From Hypomyces perniciosus (Eukaryota; Ascomycota; Sordariomycetes; Hypocreales; Hypocreaceae), in contig SPDT01000003.1 of NCBI GenBank assembly GCA_008477525.1, forward strand, positions 1,984,001-2,048,000: DNA of 64,000 nucleotides, in the 5' to 3' direction. Shown here one piece after another: positions 37,573 through 53,578 of the stretch (the stretch's first letter is position 1; every line of letters starts with the position of its first letter). The translations under genes were made by a program, and so were the position numbers. The notes under the pieces are model-generated. The model saw only the letters and a program-made list of their open reading frames with translations. It was not told the DNA's origin and did no database searches.

Positions 37573-39116
37573 TCATTCTTCTTCCTGTGCATTAATCGTC
37601 AGCCATCACACTCATACTGGCGCCTGTGATAGATACCTACGGAGACGAGGAGGGTGTTGGTGTTGGCGGCATCGGCTGCCGCCCGGGCCTTCTCGTCGTT
37701 GATCAAGCGCTATAAAGCTCACGTGTTAGTCTATAGCTCTATAGTGTCGTAAGTGGTAGCGTAACTTACTGTGGCTTCTTCTTCGAAGTTCTATAATATA
37801 CCAAGGCTGTCAGTTTTCCACGAAGCTTAGGCACCAGGGGGTTTCTCACGGGTTCCTCGGGCATCGCCTGCTCAAGGGTCTGTAAGTACCTCTCAGAAAA
37901 TGGATGCAAGGGTACTTACCTCGAGCTTTCTCTCCCAGATCTTTACATTTCGCATGGCATTAATCGCACTGGAAAAAGTACGCGAAATCAAATTCAACAG
38001 TACTTACGGCGGCATTCTTGACAGCGTTCTATGCAACGCGTCAATCAGTCCAACTATCTAAAAGCCATGGAGAGTGGTATACATACGTCAAGATACTGTT
38101 TGGCCTCCTTTGTACCCATGAGATAAGCGATCACCTTTGATAAATGAAAAGACACAATACTTACAAAGACGGCCTTCTGGTAGAACTTCCCGACAGTTAC
38201 AGGTAAGATAACGGCAGCAAGCGCAAGACATGAACAGGGGATCTCACAAGGGTTTGGCCACGCCAATACTACATTCAGTCAGAAAGGCATATCGAATCAA
38301 ACAGCAGAAGCATACGTACGGCGGCATTCTCCTCGGCTGCCTGGAAGTAGTTGTCTCGTTAATAGGAACACTGCCATATAGACACGCGATGTACGTACCT
38401 TTCTCGTTCCAGGCTGACAGAAATCAGAACCTGGAGTTACCTTGCATACACAACCGGACGCAGGGCTTACCTTCGCACGCTTCTTCTCAGAACAAGTTAG
38501 CTTGGAGAGGGAGATTAAGGCGTAAAGGGGATGGCAATATACCTTGGCCGGGGGGCCAGCGGGCTCGCGCTCAGGCTAGTTCACAATGATCAGCAGCTTT
38601 CAAGACATGCAAGGCTTCATGATGCTCGGCCTTACGGTTGGGGAGGGGGCGGCGGCGGCGGCGGAGGTGGAGATGGAAGACATCTAGAAGCGTTACAAGG
38701 TTTTTTCGACTAGATCTAAAGCTTAACGGTCGACATACGGCGGACGCATGGCGCTGAGATCATGTTAGTGCTCTATCAAATGATAATACAGTGTTTGACT
38801 TACCTTCCCGGGCTTCTTGCCACGGGGCTTGCCATTTGGCTTCGCCTACCAAGGATATCAGTCTCCTTGTATATTAACCAGTTATTGCGTTTGACCGTCG
38901 TCGCAGGTTGAACAGGGGAGGGGGCCTCGGTGAAGACAGAATGGTGATGGGCGATGGCGAAAGGACAATCCAATGCCATTGGTTCGAGCGGAGGCAAAGG
39001 ATATCGAACATGCTCGTGGAGGTGAGAGCAGTTACGTACTGTGAGCTTGGTATGCTAAGTATAGTTAGTTAGCCAGTGGATTGAGCCATAGCAGAAGAAT
39101 AGCTCACATCGTTCAT
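37573..39116 (-). CDS. Micro-exon gene: about 18 tiny phase-0 exons, eight of 21 nt each
   Basis: On the minus strand at least 17 GT-AG introns with strong donors (GTAAGT, GTACGT, GTATGT, GTGAGA) separate very short exons. All exons are multiples of three in one continuous frame. Proposed exons: 39116-39108, 39054-39040, 38845-38804, 38753-38739, 38683-38636, 38575-38543, 38485-38471, 38413-38399, 38340-38320, 38268-38248, 38185-38165, 38107-38087, 38028-38008, 37940-37920, 37870-37850, 37790-37770, 37709-37641 and 37584-37573. The product is about 146 aa: a basic start (KPNGKPRGKKPGK), an Ala/Ser/Pro segment, a KKRAK cluster, then eight seven-residue exons (for example AAEENAA, FYQKAVF, NFEEEAT) and an acidic EEE end. 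It looks helical. There is no signal peptide and no known domain. For the exons at 38107, 37940 and 37870 I chose among several acceptors. The 5' end is uncertain: an exon near 39,330-39,267 could join in frame directly to 39124-39108. Confidence 0.6.
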
Positions 39117-39597
39117 TGCAAAGACTAGCAATAGGAAGACGTGGTGTTAGCCTGTTCCTGAGGAACGAATATTTTCAGTCACCTACTGGTTCAGAGAGCG
39201 ATCTACGTCAACAGTTAGAATAGCGAAGACTATCATGGGGAAACAGGCAGGACAGGATATACTCACGTTTGGGCTCGTGGGTTTGTAAGAAGAGAACTCG
39301 GATTTGACGGGCGGCATGGGATTTGAGATTGAGCATCGTGGGCACCCGCCAGTAGCACCTTCCCCCAACAGAATCTACATCACGTCCATAGAGAAAGTAA
39401 AGCCACACCGTAATTCCTTCCAAGGTAAGCATACAGAGAGGACTGTATTCAATTTCGTCGGACAATGTGGTTTGCTTCTCCTCCAACTGTGGCAACCGTG
39501 ACAGTAACGACAGCACCATCAGATTACTATACTGCATTGCGTCTACACATCAACTTTACTGCTACTAGTGCCATAAAAACTCATTTATATACTGATA
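39117..39597. promoter_or_regulatory. Divergent upstream region of micro-exon and coiled-coil genes
   Basis: These 480 bp hold probable 5' exons of the micro-exon gene: a GTGAGT donor at 39267 and short sequence between an acceptor at about 39,144 and a GTAGGT donor at about 39,127. They also include the start region of the plus-strand gene at 39598. The two genes are head-to-head and may share a promoter. Confidence 0.4.
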
Positions 39598-40821
39598 ATG
39601 TCTATCCCAACTCGCATGGTCTCCTCCCTTCCTGAAAGGTCCGCGAAACGAAAGCGCGATGGGCTCGCCCAGCATATCATGGACGAATTCGAGAGACGCC
39701 GAGACTCTGGATCAATGAGTCCAGAGACTGACCGGATTGGTGCCATCTTGTATGAAATGGCTAACAATTCTTTAGACAATGGCGAAGTCGACCAGCAACT
39801 GCTCTTAGCAGGGTGGGAGTCGTTCGCTAAGGCAGCCGATAAGACCCGTGAGGCTCGAGCCGTCCAAGACAAGCACAACGCCCGTATCGCCGAACTCGAG
39901 CGACAGATCGAGGTCGCCAAGGCTGCCAAACTCGAGGCGATGGCCAAAATTAAAGAAGCCGACGCCGAGATGGAAAGAGTCAAATCCGAAGCAGAAAAAG
40001 CACGCGCCGACGAAATCGAGGCCACCAATCGTATCAAAGACATCGACTTTCTTTTTGAAGTCAGCGATTGGGCAGCAGATGTTTTGGAAAATGTTTCAAT
40101 TTCCGAGAAGAAACTTGCCTTTGCGCAGGATCATTCCAGGCTCATTAGGGTCCATAGAAGTCGCGGACTGGAGCCAGGACTTGCCCAAAGTCAAGCAAAC
40201 TCCGACCTCCAGTGGACAGCCATGCATAACCGCTTATGCACGGATACTCACGAATGTGTAACAGAGGAAACAGATCGCCTGAAGGAGTGGAAGGATGATG
40301 GTAGGAAGGCCGATTTGGCGCCGTCAACTCCCTTCCTGGACCGCATCGAACTTCTTTGCAACAACGCAGGCATACCCAGATCGACATGCCTCGAGTGGGT
40401 GCGCCTCTACAGCGATCGCAATGAGCTCGCTCATAAGCCCCCGCCTCGACCGAACGACTTCAAGTTAGCGGCTCCCAATGACGAAGTCAACTGGGCGGCT
40501 ATGAAGGCAGCCGTCTCTGCCAAGAAAGATGAGGTTCAAGAAAGATGCAAAGCGGGCAAGCTCGATGAGAAGAAGTCCGATATCTTCATCCAACTCATCG
40601 ATGCATACTGGTCCTTATTCTGTGTCGGATCAGACGAGGATGGAAACCCGATACCAAGGGTCGACAAAGAAAAGGCCGACGACAAGGGAAATCACAAACG
40701 CCACCGACCAAGAAGGGGCCCCTCCGCGCCACCTCACTATCCCAGTCCATATAAACATGGCACATGGGACGATCTTCTCGGAAAGAAAGAAGAGGACAAC
40801 AAGGTCGAGAAATATGAGTAA
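39598..40821 (+). CDS. Coiled-coil protein of unknown function, 407 aa
   Basis: This is a single exon with an ATG at 39598; a second ATG at residue 7 is possible. The N-terminus carries a short basic stretch (RSAKRKRDGL). Residues of about 85-145 form a long heptad coiled coil (RIAELERQIEVAKAAKLEAM and onward to KARADEIEATNR). The middle region has a possibly folded segment with FLDRIELLCNNAG and CLEWVRLYSDRNELAHK. The C-terminal tail is basic and disordered (HKRHRPRRGPSAPP). There is no signal peptide or membrane segment, and I do not recognise the family. It is divergently transcribed from the micro-exon gene, whose predicted product is also helical and charged, so a partnership is conceivable but unproven. 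Confidence 0.75.
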   Translation: MSIPTRMVSSLPERSAKRKRDGLAQHIMDEFERRRDSGSMSPETDRIGAILYEMANNSLDNGEVDQQLLLAGWESFAKAADKTREARAVQDKHNARIAELERQIEVAKAAKLEAMAKIKEADAEMERVKSEAEKARADEIEATNRIKDIDFLFEVSDWAADVLENVSISEKKLAFAQDHSRLIRVHRSRGLEPGLAQSQANSDLQWTAMHNRLCTDTHECVTEETDRLKEWKDDGRKADLAPSTPFLDRIELLCNNAGIPRSTCLEWVRLYSDRNELAHKPPPRPNDFKLAAPNDEVNWAAMKAAVSAKKDEVQERCKAGKLDEKKSDIFIQLIDAYWSLFCVGSDEDGNPIPRVDKEKADDKGNHKRHRPRRGPSAPPHYPSPYKHGTWDDLLGKKEEDNKVEKYE

Positions 40822-42076
40822 GTGGCTGTGACCAGCTCTCACGTCTAGGTGCAGTCTCCCTTCAGTCCTCGCTTCTTCAGATTTTCAGTTTGATCAAGTT
40901 TCAGAACGCGCACTCGCAACAAGCGGGCCATCTTGCACATCAACACATGATCAAAGAAATCCTCGTCAGGCATCTTTTCCATCGAGATTAGATATGCCGC
41001 GTTCCAGCATCGCTGAGTTCGTAGAGGTCCCTCCTTTCCATTAGGCTAAGAGGCGATTGCAAATCCTTCTCGGGCATCTTTTCCATTGAGATTAGATGTA
41101 CCACGTCCCAACGTCGTTGAGGTCGTAAAGAAGGTCCCTCTCTTCTGCGAGGAGGAGAGGCGGCCCTCACCACCCCATCGGGGGGGAGGGCAAGGGCGGC
41201 GAAGTCGGATTCCTACAACCTCCTCGCGGTGCCGCCCGGGGACCTGATTCTCTCAGCAGAGAATTATAGGCAATGTAGGAGACGCATACTATGGTTCAAC
41301 GAGGCGTAATCCTGCTAGGCGGGTATTCCCGGTACGCATCCTTCTCCTTATATACCAGGATGCGGAGAAAAGCTCCCACACACATGACTGGTTACTGACA
41401 ACAACAACTTGGGACTAAAAAAGTCCACTACCGGCAATCGAAACTGTTGGGAATCTTGAGCACCAATACGATACGGCTCGCACGATCGGTTCGGTGAATT
41501 TGTCTTTCTCCCCATCAGTCAGCCCACCAGAATGGCGCCCCATCTACTCCCTCACGAGCTGTCATCTGTGCTTAATCGCCTTCCAACGACATCTGGAAAT
41601 GGATAATGCAAAGCGAAAAACAGTCGTATGCAAGTCAACCCCCCCCGGAGTCATATTCATTCTCCTCATGTGTACGCAGACTGACCATGTCCTCCACATC
41701 CAGCACGTCCAATTCGGCACCCGTATCATCACTGCCATGGGGGGGATGATACTGATCCATTCAATGTGGCATTTCCCCACGACCCCGAAATACATTCTCT
41801 CCAATCTTTTCAACTTGCAGCCCTATATTCTTTGTCAGTAACTCGGAAAATGAAAAAAAGAAACCCTCAACTTTTATCATCAATCAGTCAAAGATTTCTT
41901 GTTGGGCAGCGACGCCTCTGAGTGGGAAATGGTGCCACATAACCATGGAGGAGGTAAATTTTATTATCTTCCAGGCGTAATAGGATATATAACTACAGCG
42001 CCTCGTGGATGATCCTGCAGGCTTCATTTTAGCATAAACCCTGGCTAGCTAAGGCTTGATGTTATATACATGGGAA
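40822..42076. other. Intergenic region with a ~100-bp duplication and one small ORF
   Basis: Two copies of a segment containing GGCATCTTTTCCAT and GAGATTAGAT lie at about 40,970-41,032 and 41,071-41,137. They look like an old tandem duplication. A minus-strand small frame (41760-41635, 41 codons, start MDQYHPPHGS, acidic, end DSGGG) has no known domain and is only weakly supported. Nothing else is recognised. Confidence 0.45.
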
Positions 42077-44070: not shown

Positions 44071-47000
44071 CAGGCTGGCGATCCATTCCATTTCCATCCA
44101 CGCAGCCTTAGCTGAGTGGATGGACGTCCATTTCAGTCAACGTGCAGTGGAATGGGTGGAATGGACGCCCAGAGCAGTCGCATGGAATGGATGGAAATGG
44201 AAATGGATGCGTGGATGGGGTTACCTAAATAGGAAAGGTATCGCGCTAATAGATTAGTTACTATATATAGTACTCACCACAGTCACTGTAACCATCTCAA
44301 TGATCACCAAGCAACAAAATTCATTATACAGGATATCTCTCTTATTATACATAATTAAAACAAGCACTTTCTTAATGAGCCCAGGCTCTAGCCAGTGCGC
44401 TATAAATAAAGTCTAGAGAGGGATAGTACATACAATTCGCCCACCTGTTACTTCACGAGCTTCTATAAAGCTCAGTTCGGCAAGCGGATCGGTATCCGAT
44501 AACTCAACCTCTTCAAGAAGCTTCTCCACACTTCGAATATATCCCCCACGAAGCCACGATCTCACCGTCTGCGTCATTCCAATTGTACTAGCATCCAGAT
44601 TTGCCCGGTCATCTCGAACCATTCTGCCGGCCGTAGAGAAAAGTCTCTCAACGTCAGCAGACATTGGAAGAGTAGAAAGAACATCAAGGGCCATCCGTGA
44701 TAGGCGAGGATATTCCTCCCGTCTGTCGCACCAATAGCTGATGGGATCCAGGATCCTCTGATCCGATTTATGTACGTCTCGAAACCAATCGTTATATTCA
44801 TCTCCCACAGCTGACGAAGCAGGAGTGAATGGCGACTGTAATAATGCCGGCGCCTGACGAGACTCCTCGCAGTACTCGTTGAAGGGATTTCGATAAGTTC
44901 GCTGCTTCTTCATAACCGGTTCTCGGTCTCGAGAAACGACCTGCGGATCGTATTGAGACCTATACAGCCCCTCCACAAGGGACTTTGCAGTCTGGATCCA
45001 TTCTGGGCGATCTGCCCATATGTCCTCAAAGTATCCCCAACGATATGCTGGATGAAGCGCGACAGCTGCATAATAGACCGGTGTCTCATCAAGCCGCGAG
45101 TAGTACTCATCAAGTTTCTTCCAGCAGAGATTAATATTGACCTTGAAGTGCTCAGGGTCGGGATATCGATGAGCAGCGGCCTTATATACCTCCATTTTAT
45201 TAAGCAGGTACTCGTAGCCAAACATAAGATCCCAAGAGCATCCATATGCTTTAGTATAGCCATACTTTCGCATCCGCTGTCGACCGTCACCTTCAAGGGT
45301 AATTAAAACATGCTCAAAATGTTGGAGGACCTCGTTAAAAAGAGCGATAATATTCCAATCCTTCTCATCGAGTTTGTTGTCATCCCTGAGACAAAGTGGC
45401 ATTTCACTCCTCGACTTCTTTCCCCTTAAAATTGACCCTTCCCACTCGTTTTTCTGCCTATACCAGAGTTCTTCAAGGAAGTCCTTCAGGAGAAGAGCGC
45501 GTCGGATCATGTAAAGAGTAGAAAGCCAACGAGTTACCACATCAGTAATGACATCTAGAGGCTTTTTTGCTTGTATTGTCGGATCCTCAGACTTCTCGAA
45601 CGCGACCAACTGAAGAGACCGAAGGAGATTAGTTAGTAAGTCTGAACGATGAATCCAAACGACAAGGTTATGGAGTTTCCCAATAGGGCCTTTCCGTCTC
45701 CACATCTCATGGGCCTTCGCATTAAGCGCCTCATTTCCAAGGATATCATCCTCAAATGCCTCAGAGTCATGGCCAAAAAGCAGCGCTTTAACAGCAAGAT
45801 TAAGGATATGGCCAAAGCAGCGTAATCGCCGGGTTTCTCCCTTAAAGCCCAGCGCTTTTCCGATTTCCTTCATCGCTGTATCGTTGTTGCTGGCGTTATC
45901 AAGTGTAAAGTATCCGACCTTCTGGGTTATATCATAGCTCCGAAGGATATCGACAACATGAGCAGCAATATTCTCCCCAGAATGACGATCGACAAGCTCT
46001 GGAAGTCCAAGGACAAGTTTTTGTGGCTGGCCAACGGTATCAAGAAAATAGCAAACGATTCCATATAGAGCATGGCGATTATTCGACCTCCAGCCATCGA
46101 ACGCTATGTGAATCAGCCCTGGGGCTGCCGCCAACACTCGCTTTATTTCCTCTATGTTTTCTTCGTACACCTTAAGGATGCGTCTGCGAACGGTATCGTG
46201 GGTGATATGTGCCTCGGTCGTCTTCACGAGGGGATTGAGGTACTCGAAAACTGCGCGGAGGTACGGATCTTCGCTTTGTCGGAAGGAGGAATTACTGTTG
46301 ATGATCCAACAGACTACCAAGCGCTGGAAGGCTAATCGATCAAAACGGCCGATGATCTGGTTGGCAATCTGCTGTTCTCGCGAGTTATATGTGTTCAGCT
46401 TCATCATCTCGGCGATATTCCTTGATGACGTATTCTCTTTTGCTTTACTTGGCGGCTTCCGCCTGCCTGAAGGATCCCAGATACTGTGGTCGGTCCAGAG
46501 GTGGATCTCTGCGTTCTGTGTGCCATTCGAGGCAGTCGAGTGAGGTTTTTGCTTACTACTCTTTACGCAGACCTTGCAAACCCATCGCCGCTTTGTATCA
46601 TCGTCGCTCTTCTCGATATCGTAACCGAATTGCCATATCCATGACGATATGGATGCGCAACGCTGGGATTGAGTATACCCAGGGAAGTATTTCCAAGGGA
46701 AAAGGTCCCACAGGTTCTCCTGGTCCTCCTGGGCCTGTATCTGAGGATGCATAGGGTTAATAAATTATGCTTATGGCGATTCCATTAATAAAAAATTCAT
46801 ATACGAAGTACATAAAACCCTTTCTCCTAATAGAAGTTCAACGCGCCTGAACGCGGTAACTAAGAACGCGAAATCTCCACGCTCCTGGCTACCAAAAAAA
46901 AAAAATCTTCCATAATCACTACTAACATATGTAAGAGCAAAATGTATAGTGATTTGTTAGTGGTGACTTAAGTTTAGCGTCCCTCTAGTTTTATACTAGG

Positions 47001-49005: not shown

Positions 49006-49210
49006 GGCCGCCGCTAGTTAAGAAGCAGGATGTCTATCGGCCGCCACTAAGAAGTAAGATACTATCCATCTGCCGCTGCTAAGAAGCAAGATATCCAGCA
49101 GCTGCTACTAAGAAGCGAGATTTCCATTGTCCGCCGCTAAGGAATGAGATTTCAATTTTCCGCTGCCAAGGAATGAGATGGCGCGGAGTCAGCTGCCACT
49201 AATAAGAGAC
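49006..49210. repeat. Degenerate ~36-bp tandem repeat
   Basis: Recurring cores GCCGCNNCTAAGAAGCAAGAT and GCCGCTAAGGAATGAGAT are spaced about 30-38 bp apart. Units differ mainly by transitions. Confidence 0.6.
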
Positions 49211-50206: not shown

Positions 50207-53200
50207 ATGGCAGTCTTTACATCCGTTCATCGCCGCATTGCCGGCGCAGGCATGTTTCTCCTGCTGTTGACTGGCTCCTTGGCTGCATCCAAAAGCAGCA
50301 ATATTGCTAAAGTCTCCCAGCGAGGACTATCCAAAGATGCCTCCTGCCCCAACGGATGGCTCTGTCAGCAGTCCAGTTGTGACGCGGCCGCCTGTTCAGC
50401 GGGAGAGGTTTGCATTTCGTTTGAGGGCACCATTGTATGCGCACCGGCTGGTCAGACATGGTGTGCACTCAATCCCAAGACATTCGAAGCTGTAGAATGC
50501 TCCAACGGGGGTGTTTGCTGGTGCGTTTCATCTTCATAAGCCTATCCAATTTCCTTAAATGCCGTGGCGACACTAACACATCTGCAGTCATGGAAACTGC
50601 TACAAGTCCGGTACCGTATGCTGTGATAATGCTTCTATCCAGTGTACTATTGGAGACTTGTGTCTTGCATGCCCCAGTGGTGACACTTGCACAACTGGAG
50701 CGTCTACGTGCGCCGCTGGCGGTGGATCGCCGCCTCTGTCGTCGTCGTCGTCGTCGTCAAAGCCTTCGTCCCACAGCACGTCTATACGCCAAACAACAGC
50801 AGCTCCACCAATGACTACTACCAAATCGAGCTCATCATCAACACCAGTACAACAACCCGCATCATCCACAACGAGTACGCCAACCAAGCCTACGATCGTA
50901 CAGCAGCATGGCAACTATAAATATAGCGGGTGCTATATTGATAGCTCTGATTCCCGTGTCTTAGTTGTCGCCAATAGCGCTGATGCAAGCTCGAATGGAA
51001 TGACAGTTGAAAAATGTATAGCATTGGCGGACAAACAAAACCTACGCTACGCTGGCCTCGAGGTCGGCTCAGAATGCTTTATGGGAAATACCCTTCATTC
51101 CCTTACTAAGGCTCCAGACAGTGACTGCAATACTGTTTGCGCTGGCTCGCCTACTGAGTATTGTGGTCAGGGTAATAGGCTGCAGGTCTATGAGGACACA
51201 ACGTGGTCTGATCCTACCTTGGATGAGCTTACCCAGGCCCTACTGCAATATAACAATACCCTATTTGAGTTGCAGACGCTTACTGGGCAATACAATGACC
51301 TTATTCAACAGTGGGCAAATCAGCAGAAAGCCAATGGTGGTCAGAAGCGGTGGTTGCCCAGGAGGCGAAGTCGAACTATAACTGTTACCGAGCTGGACAA
51401 TACATTGACCGACATGGAGAATCGATATCCTCACTTGCGGGCTCTTTTAGGTATGTTCTGGACTATTAGTTGTCTCCATGAAATCATCCCTAACCTTGCG
51501 AATAGATGAGGCAGCACGGAATGGAGGTGTTCTCTATCGTCGTGGAGGCAGCGCAGATGTTTTACGGCCAGGCCAGTCTAACCCCTTTGTTGATGCTCCA
51601 AATCTACAAAACGCACAGCAGGCCTTTGATATTCCCCTCAAGCCACTTGCAGATGTGCAAACCGCAATAGAAGATGATCTTCGGTCAATTGCCGAGTCAA
51701 CCAGCTCGACCACGCCGCTCCTGAACACGGCCAGAGACTTGGAAGTCTCAGGCACGGCGGTAAGTTACCCGGAGGTTACTTTGATTCGCAACTAACCCTC
51801 GATTGCAGAACAACGCCATCGGCAAGATCAGCGGTGCTAGTCTTGCAGCTATAGCAGCTGGTCATGGCATTTGTAAGTACATCTTGATAATGCACAGGAT
51901 GACATGGAACTGACTTTGTGTCTTCGTATCTAGTTGCTCTTCTGGCCCTGATATTCCTTCATCTACATCCTTCCAGCGACAATAGTAATCCATCAACTAC
52001 ACCACATTCGCAACCAACTTCCGTTACAGTCACTTCTACGACCAGCTCTCCTACCGCATCGGCGACCCCGTATCTCCTTGTTGCAGCAGACGGCGTCTCG
52101 GTCGATCAATTCCAGGCTTTCACCGACAAATTGTCCTCCCATCCCGACACTGATATCATCAACAGCCCATTTGCAATTGCGCGGGTAGTCAGTCTAAATG
52201 ACACGGAATTGGAAGATGTGCAGCAGAACAAAATAGTCTTCTCCGCAACAGAAAATGAACTCCCTGATATCTTCCAGGACATTAAAAATCCGAAGAGGAA
52301 CTTGACTCTCGAAGAATTGCCAAAGCTAGGCCTTGAAAAACGGACCGATAACCCAAGAGGCACTGCTGAACCCGGCAGCACGATACCAGCAACCCAGTTG
52401 ATCGGCCGTAAAGGGCTCTCTGGACTCACTATTGGCCACCTTACTTCACTGTCTCAGAAATGGTTTACCGAGGCTACCACCGACGGGTTTGACTATGTTT
52501 ATGAGAAGGACCCAGGAAAGGGCACCTTTATCTACGTTATTGATGAGGGTGTTGATCTGAGTCACCCAGAATTTATTGGAATCCCGAAAGAGCAGATCAT
52601 TATCAACAACTTCGTCCCTAAAAACACCCACGGCACTAAGGTTGCTGGACAGGCAGTAGGAAAGGTCCTCGGCGTCGCGTCATCTGCAACATTGGTTGAT
52701 ATTGCCAGTTCCTCAAAAACTGAAAAAGACGTTCTAGACGCTTTAACTGCAACATATAATGATATTATTGCAAAAGGGCGGCAAGGAAAGGCTGTTGTTA
52801 ATATGTCCTGGAGTATGCCCTCCAAAGGCCGGCTTTCGCAGAACTATTGGCTAGCGAAATCTATGCGAAGGTTCATCGATATTGGTGCTGTTCCTGTTCT
52901 TGCTGCCGGCAATAACGGCAAGCTACCCGGATCAGCCGGGCTTTACGATGAAGGGGTCCCTCAATTTTACATTTCAAGTATTGATGGGCTTATTATCGTT
53001 GGCTCAGTGGATGAAAATGGAAAACGAGATGCCTTTACTGCCAAATGCGACGCCAGAAACACCTTATCAACATGCCTATCAGCATATGCCAGGGGCTCCG
53101 GATTGGTAGTTGCGGATAGTAGTACTGGTTACTACGACTCTGATGAGAACGGTACATCTTTCGCGGCACCAATTGTCTCCGGCTTGGTTGCATATCTCAT

Positions 53201-53578
53201 GGCCCATCCAAATGCCAATATCCAGAGCCAAGTCTACGCTGGCGGCAATGCGCAGATTGCAGAAAATGTGGACTTTATCATCAACAAGTGGAGTTGGTCG
53301 CGTAATCCAACGGGTGGTATTGACTGGCCTAATATTGCTTGGAACGGCGTTGTTGGCAATGCCTGCAACTTGAATGCTGGACCAAACGGCAAGGTTGCGG
53401 CTACACCGGATGAGGATGGTGGTCAACTGGTTTTGAAGACTACTGAGTCGCCATTGACTGGTGTAAGTACTTGGTCCCTCCCCAGGTCTCTGTATACTAA
53501 CTTTATACCAAGGTCACCAACTCTTGTCCTTAGACTGACAAGCTTGAATCGCCGGGTGACTCTGTATCATCACGATAG
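50207..53578 (+). CDS. WSC-domain / transmembrane / subtilisin-like (S8) fusion protein, 1022 aa
   Basis: There are six exons: 50207-50520, 50588-51450, 51506-51759, 51809-51872, 51934-53462 and 53534-53578. The lengths sum to 1023 codons. Order of parts: signal peptide (to about residue 27); a cysteine-rich region (about 45-150, with CHGNC and SGTVCCDNAS); a Ser/Thr linker; a WSC domain (about 210-290, YSGCYIDSSDSR to SPTEYCGQGNRLQVY); a polar helical segment ending before a hydrophobic stretch at about 485-508 (ASLAAIAAGHGIFALLALIF); another Ser/Thr linker; and an S8 domain with D702 (YVIDEGVD), H731 (NTHGTKVAG), an AAGNNG oxyanion segment and S907 (ENGTSFAAPIV). All three catalytic residues are present. 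With a cleaved signal peptide and one stop-transfer segment, the protease would face the cytosol and the WSC part the wall. The end of the last exon is uncertain: an earlier acceptor would give VTNSCP and stop. Confidence 0.82.

Follow-up and report, generated by a model that had tools for sequence, protein, structure and literature searches.

The window analysed here is a stretch of 64,000 nt of the Hypomyces perniciosus genome (contig SPDT01000003.1, positions 1984001-2048000; assembly 44.0 Mb, 23 contigs), and all coordinates below are window coordinates. On its minus strand, from 39116 to 37573, lies a series of exons and introns whose spliced frame is open, which agrees with the first-pass annotation of this DNA. 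In an 18-exon model the introns are 50-67 nt long, apart from a single intron of 194 nt, and 15 of the 18 exons are at most 36 nt, while 17 of the 18 are at most 51 nt. If exon 15 is 18 nt, the spliced ORF measures 438 nt, a stop following 145 codons; the 441-nt frame claimed earlier is obtained if that exon is 21 nt. Two 5' UTR-type introns precede the coding part: one of 64 nt (39203..39266, minus strand; donor score 4.8, branch site TCTAAC), which the frame-free chain includes at two of its three intron rates, and one of 62 nt (39125..39186, minus strand; donor 5.0, branch site GCTAAC), which it includes at all three. Between them a UTR-type exon of 16 nt (39202-39187, minus strand) carries an in-frame TGA. 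With the two introns (39266-39203 and 39186-39125) spliced out, this TGA stands five codons ahead of the ATG at 39116, and thus, given the upstream splices, 39116 is the earliest possible start in its frame.

All exons of the model lie on the minus strand. Exon 1 (39108..39116; MND, with the proposed start codon) is common to the 18-exon model and the gene model. Exon 2 (39040..39054; 15 nt, HTKLT) has an in-frame alternative of 159 nt (39054-38896), and the 42-nt exon 3 (38804..38845), rich in Lys, Gly and Pro, is again present in both models. Exon 4 (38739..38753, 15 nt), the Ser/Ala-rich exon 5 (38636..38683, 48 nt), exon 6 (38543..38575, 33 nt) and exon 8 (38399..38413, 15 nt) were recovered by the gene model and by the frame-free chain alike; exon 7 (38471..38485, KKRAK) is 15 nt, or 12 nt if the acceptor at 38482 is used. 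The 21-nt exons begin with exon 9 (38320..38340, AAEENAA), to which exon 13 is similar and which becomes 25 nt in strict model runs, and exon 10 (38248..38268, YWRGQTL), which is followed by a weak intron. Exon 11 (38165..38185, FYQKAVF) and exon 12 (38087..38107, EAKQYLD) are 21 nt as modelled and shrink to 12 and 9 nt if the CAG acceptors at 38176 and 38095, respectively, are used. Exon 13 (38008..38028, 21 nt, NAVKNAA) is shared by the 18-exon model and the gene model, and exon 14 (37920..37940, 21 nt, IWERKLE) has an AAG acceptor. Exon 15 (37850..37867, AMPEEP) is 18 nt, with 21 or 30 nt available through upstream in-frame acceptors, the 21-nt choice having the worst score of the three. 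The last exons, found by both the gene model and the frame-free chain, are exon 16 (37770..37790, 21 nt, NFEEEAT), the charged, Ala-rich exon 17 (37641..37709, 69 nt) and exon 18 (37573..37584, 12 nt, EEE plus stop).

The splice-site series at the locus is real and beyond chance. The gene model used a codon table from long open frames, together with splice matrices that were started from general fungal values and then refitted to genes predicted in 234 kb of the genome, excluding any prediction that overlaps the locus; the intron-length prior (57 nt, sd 10) was fixed with the locus already known, and the predicted introns have a median of 61.5-65.5 nt. A training set of counted consensus introns proved too noisy and was dropped in favour of the gene model (67 in the sequence against 41 in one shuffle). 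The best frame-free intron chain, which uses no codon information, consists of 13 introns with a score of 35.5, compared with a mean of 2.7 (sd 2.2, maximum 10.4) in 300 shuffles. Among 508 tiled real segments covering 234 kb on both strands, the top two (23.4 and 22.1) overlap the locus and the third scores 16.1. Nine donors scoring at least 5 fall within 1.3 kb at the locus against 1.06 expected, the next-best place in the 234 kb (both strands) having six; the lead is smaller at other cut-offs (19 vs 14 at 4 or more, 6 vs 5 at 5.5 or more). All 17 donors of the 18-exon model score at least 3 and 15 of the 17 at least 4, levels attained by 15% and 6%, respectively, of all GT dinucleotides in the window. 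At the loosest intron rate the frame-free parse gives 15 introns and 14 exons, nine of which are multiples of three (15, 48, 33, 12, 15, 21, 18, 21 and 69 nt); of the other five, two are UTR-type exons (16 and 17 nt) and three are larger blocks that the 18-exon model breaks up by introns (235, 182 and 109 nt). Between exons 3 and 18, all nine exons resolved by this parse are divisible by three. Stricter rates yield 6 of 12 and 5 of 10 exons divisible by three. In the comparison set of 96 introns from well-scored predicted genes, phases 0, 1 and 2 occur 29, 34 and 33 times.

Several individual exons can be drawn in more than one way. Introns 10, 11 and 13 have total scores of 0.4, 1.3 and 2.3, with AAG ends and without a good branch site; introns 2 and 6 are also low (1.5 and 1.7), and the other twelve score 3.4-9.1. 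Competing sites occur at exons 2, 7, 11, 12 and 15. The 15-nt form of exon 2 uses donor 39039 (score 4.9) and the 194-nt intron, and the 159-nt form, which the gene model chose at all four intron rates, uses donor 38895 (score 0.95) and a 50-nt intron. Exons 11 and 12 can be read as 21 + 21 nt, as 12 + 9 nt or as one 90-nt block. Out-of-frame competition is present at exon 9, where a rival acceptor and a rival donor lie 4 nt away, and at exon 2, with a competing acceptor 16 nt away. On a segment begun just before exon 1, at 39124, and with the acceptor cut-off of the genome-wide run lifted, the gene model joined ATG 39116 to the stop at 37573 as one gene at all four intron rates, with 15 exons at 1/300, 16 at 1/60 and 1/30, and 17 at 1/15. 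Every one of the 17 exons in the 1/15 parse is in phase 0 and divisible by three, and exons 9, 10, 13, 14 and 16 measure 21 nt; at 1/300 there are three 21-nt exons (13, 14 and 16). At 1/300, 1/60 and 1/30 exon 9 is 25 nt and exons 10-12 form a 182-nt block, neither divisible by three. In the genome-wide run the locus came out as two genes, the start being ATG 39519, which lies in a different frame; a longer segment (39560-37400) gave the same start. A run with the gene-start cost removed broke the locus into many tiny genes, and the normal cost was restored. An exact phase-0 set of 15-18 exons, nearly all multiples of three, is well supported without being proved. Of the about 18 tiny phase-0 exons first proposed, what stands is that there are many, tiny and mostly symmetric in phase 0, with the count lying between 15 and 18; the proposed run of eight consecutive 21-nt exons did not hold, since five (exons 9, 10, 13, 14 and 16) are defensible.

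The exons carry a coding signal. Their codon score in the proposed frame is 44.3, whereas 5000 in-exon shuffles average -5.3 (sd 9.7) and never attain the observed value; this test is partly selected, as the exon set was picked beforehand in that frame. Per codon the score is 0.27, and 39 well-scored genes range from 0.07 to 0.31. The other two frames score near zero and contain 2 and 3 stops. The GC content is 0.61 in exons vs 0.45 in introns, and a frame open across 145 codons arises in 1.4% of in-exon shuffles. Retention of any of 10 of the 17 introns introduces a stop, and only introns 6, 7 and 11 can be retained with neither a stop nor a change of frame. Whatever its origin and use, we are confident that the locus holds a genuine coding gene spliced from many tiny exons. 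In the search of RNA families none reached its gathering score, the single listed match (E 0.27) being on the other strand. Host genes of snoRNAs occur in other fungi; such a role was set aside here, with introns of 50-67 nt and no snoRNA family matched.

The predicted protein has a net charge of +13 over its N-terminal 64 residues and -8 over the remainder. Its basic N-terminal half bears Lys/Arg clusters resembling nuclear localisation signals, and the acidic C-terminal half is probably helical. Across exons 9-14 the hydrophobicity has a period of 7 (p 0.0013, or about 0.013 after allowing for ten periods), which lends modest support to the earlier suggestion of a seven-residue module; the ordinary helix periods are weaker (3.6, p 0.037; 3.5, p 0.11). 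These two values do not establish a classical coiled coil. Because the ordinary helix periods are weaker than period 7, helix design and likeness among the exons are inseparable as its source. By plain hydropathy there is neither a signal peptide nor a membrane span from ATG 39116 (best 12-residue mean -0.5 near the N terminus, and 0.96 anywhere, in the Ser/Ala run), a result obtained for this start. The 145-residue model has no cysteine, and the 144-nt extension of exon 2 would add two. The product is probably an orphan, non-secreted protein with a basic and a helical part; that it acts as a nuclear helical adaptor is a suggestion we offer with low confidence.

Searches for relatives of this protein were negative. 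Two protein searches returned 149 and 163 candidates, none at E<=10, and no Pfam family scored above its cut-off. Across protein, family and solved-structure searches nothing went beyond chance (lamin, E 0.77; CCDC53, E 2.7). In its own genome the query found the locus itself (E 2.1e-5) and one match on contig C4 (E 1.7, 21% identity), and no second copy of the locus DNA was found there. A neighbouring 2EXR protein matched 58 proteins, the best relative being 54% identical; the species therefore seems to be absent from the protein collection. Those of the 2EXR matches that carry a name belong to the Sordariomycetes, in most cases to Fusarium; Neonectria and Metarhizium rank among the best of them. 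The gene at the locus is apparently lineage-restricted. In a Pfam scan of 20 open frames in the window, several had the families of a filamentous ascomycete (2EXR, a fungal Zn-cluster factor, GH43 and WSC). The divergent neighbour at 39598-40991 (plus strand) encodes a charged product of about 440 residues with no Pfam family in its main frame, and because the two starts are 482 nt apart a shared promoter is possible. Further along, an open frame at 44416-46764 (minus strand) has the C-terminal dimerisation domain of a hAT-family transposase, 29-nt tandem repeats form two overlapping rows at 49019-49179, and at 50207-53578 (plus strand) a WSC-domain frame is followed by a subtilase frame, which the gene model merges.

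About 28 kb from the locus, beyond the window end at 66635-68923 in window coordinates, lies an argininosuccinate synthase gene (NCBIfam TIGR00032, E 1.3e-126; structure 2nz2, presumably the human enzyme, E 3.1e-119). It is the second-best donor cluster at cut-off 5. Its model has 14 exons, among which a 15-nt and a 5-nt exon both fall within an ungapped alignment to 2nz2, so this fungus splices tiny exons in a conserved gene. About 22 residues of the model are absent from relatives and probably reflect an unrecognised intron, and the alignment to 2nz2 does not reach the first exon; another exon, of 19 nt, is predicted. The gene resembles the locus in its dense short introns and very small exons, and differs in having mostly longer exons that are not all multiples of three and in encoding a conserved enzyme. 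What the DNA shows, in sum, is a locus dense in splice sites whose exons carry a coding signal, and a conserved gene elsewhere in this genome that contains tiny exons.

We then compared the 21-nt exons with one another. Seven of them resemble one another more closely than they do after codon shuffling (mean, p 0.012; best pair, p 0.047), and the seven heptads exceed within-heptad shuffles in likeness (p 0.0004). Over the exon end and donor, exons 9 and 13 are identical at 17 of 18 bases. A comparison of each exon with 25 nt of flank (0 of 200 shuffles) was inflated by the shared donor consensus, and a donor-matched control was used instead: windows of exon end plus intron start for exons 9-16 resemble one another more than eight windows taken from 142 control donors do (mean, p 0.002), the closest pair being exons 9 and 13 (p 0.0025). 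The intron bodies give no such signal, neither for the 17 introns against shuffles (best pair, p 0.19) nor for introns 9 and 13 alone (p 0.40). A block duplication of exons 9-12 into 13-16 has weak support (p 0.042), with no likeness in its introns (best pair, p 0.98). Spread of introner-type introns was rejected, the 17 introns not being alike. The indication of duplication thus comes from exon ends, and mainly from one pair. Some exon duplication is likely, and the array as a whole may have arisen in this way.

Taken together, the evidence leads us to lean towards an orphan coding gene whose seven-codon phase-0 exon owes its repeated occurrence in part to duplication and which yields mostly one constitutive mRNA. 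The short introns would be removed by ordinary intron-definition splicing, and part of the array may derive from duplicated exon-intron units with a pitch of about 80 nt and breakpoints in introns; breakpoints so placed would have kept phase 0, the 21-nt size and the seven-residue period. The main product would be a single mostly constitutive mRNA, with small in-frame variants conceivable at exons 2, 7, 11, 12 and 15, where splice sites compete. We consider it unlikely, yet deserving of serious attention, that a small orphan gene instead gained its introns singly and that the equal sizes and common phase are partly chance and partly acceptor choice. That account fits the robust 21-nt exons numbering only five, the intron bodies not being alike and an intron-dense conserved gene lying nearby, and it is opposed by the phase 0 of the resolved part, against 29/34/33 in other introns, and by an exon likeness in excess of controls.

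The preferred exon-duplication reading also has to be set against regulated skipping and inclusion of the 21-nt exons, through which, by analogy with schistosome micro-exon genes (MEGs), the locus might generate many variants of a helical protein. All 18 model exons are symmetric, so the frame would survive skipping, a seven-residue step would preserve the hydrophobic period, and there are several weak introns and competing in-frame acceptors; some competing sites are nevertheless out of frame (exons 9 and 2), no signal-peptide-like start follows from ATG 39116, and the argininosuccinate synthase nearby has tiny exons plainly needed for its protein. We regard this proposal as rather improbable. 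Skipping of whole phase-0 exons with preservation of the reading frame is possible from the exon layout. A narrower version, in which each 21-nt phase-0 exon encodes one seven-residue helical repeat and splicing sets the length of a molecular ruler, we hold to be a long shot; if true, exon skipping or duplication would change the helix by one repeat while the frame and hydrophobic register are kept. Least probable, and by our estimate very much so, is a spliced non-coding or decaying locus with real splice sites and an open frame that specifies no functional protein: protein and family searches with no homologue are in its favour, and the codon usage, the GC contrast, the 145-codon open frame (1.4% of shuffles) and the absence of any RNA family at gathering score argue against it.

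The layout invites comparison with known systems. In schistosome MEGs about 80% of the coding region is in symmetric exons of 6-36 nt, according to PMC5825161. Much of the coding sequence here would likewise lie in short symmetric exons, 64% in the 18-exon model and less with the 159-nt exon 2. Unlike MEGs, whose product is secreted or membrane-anchored, the locus shows no signal-peptide-like start from ATG 39116 by hydropathy, and protein searches found no sequence relation to them. Bicycle proteins of aphids are secreted and have a CYC motif, which is unmatched in our cysteine-free 145-residue model. Their genes are described as having about 17 exons on average, the internal ones being unusually small and sharing a single phase (PMC9168663); the locus is similar in its many small one-phase internal exons, the phase being 2 in bicycle genes and 0 in the 18-exon model and the 17-exon parse. 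In vertebrate TNNT3 (fast skeletal troponin T), the 5' alternative exons are reported to be mostly of one phase class, and the protein has a heptad-repeat region (PMC2447309). The likeness, one-phase exons plus heptads, is by description only, and in TNNT3 the heptads lie apart from the alternative 5' exons, whereas here the tiny exons span the predicted helical part. Among filamentous ascomycetes, a microexon is reported in Xlr2 of Trichoderma virens (PMC11121469), whose authors stated in 2024 that no functional microexons had been described in filamentous fungi until then and that fungal microexon tests had been limited to Schizosaccharomyces pombe. Xlr2 has one regulated microexon, in contrast to the array at this locus. 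For arrays of tiny symmetric exons, the open literature gave schistosomes and aphids and none from fungi among the matches listed.

A layout for which animal parasites and gall insects have been the best-known examples thus appears, as far as the genomic sequence indicates, to occur in an ascomycete. The case suggests that annotation pipelines could overlook such genes. If confirmed, the locus would offer a simple, genetically tractable ascomycete system with short introns in which to study how the spliceosome handles exons of 9-21 nt, and it would also serve questions of gene origin (exon duplication vs intron gain) and of isoforms.
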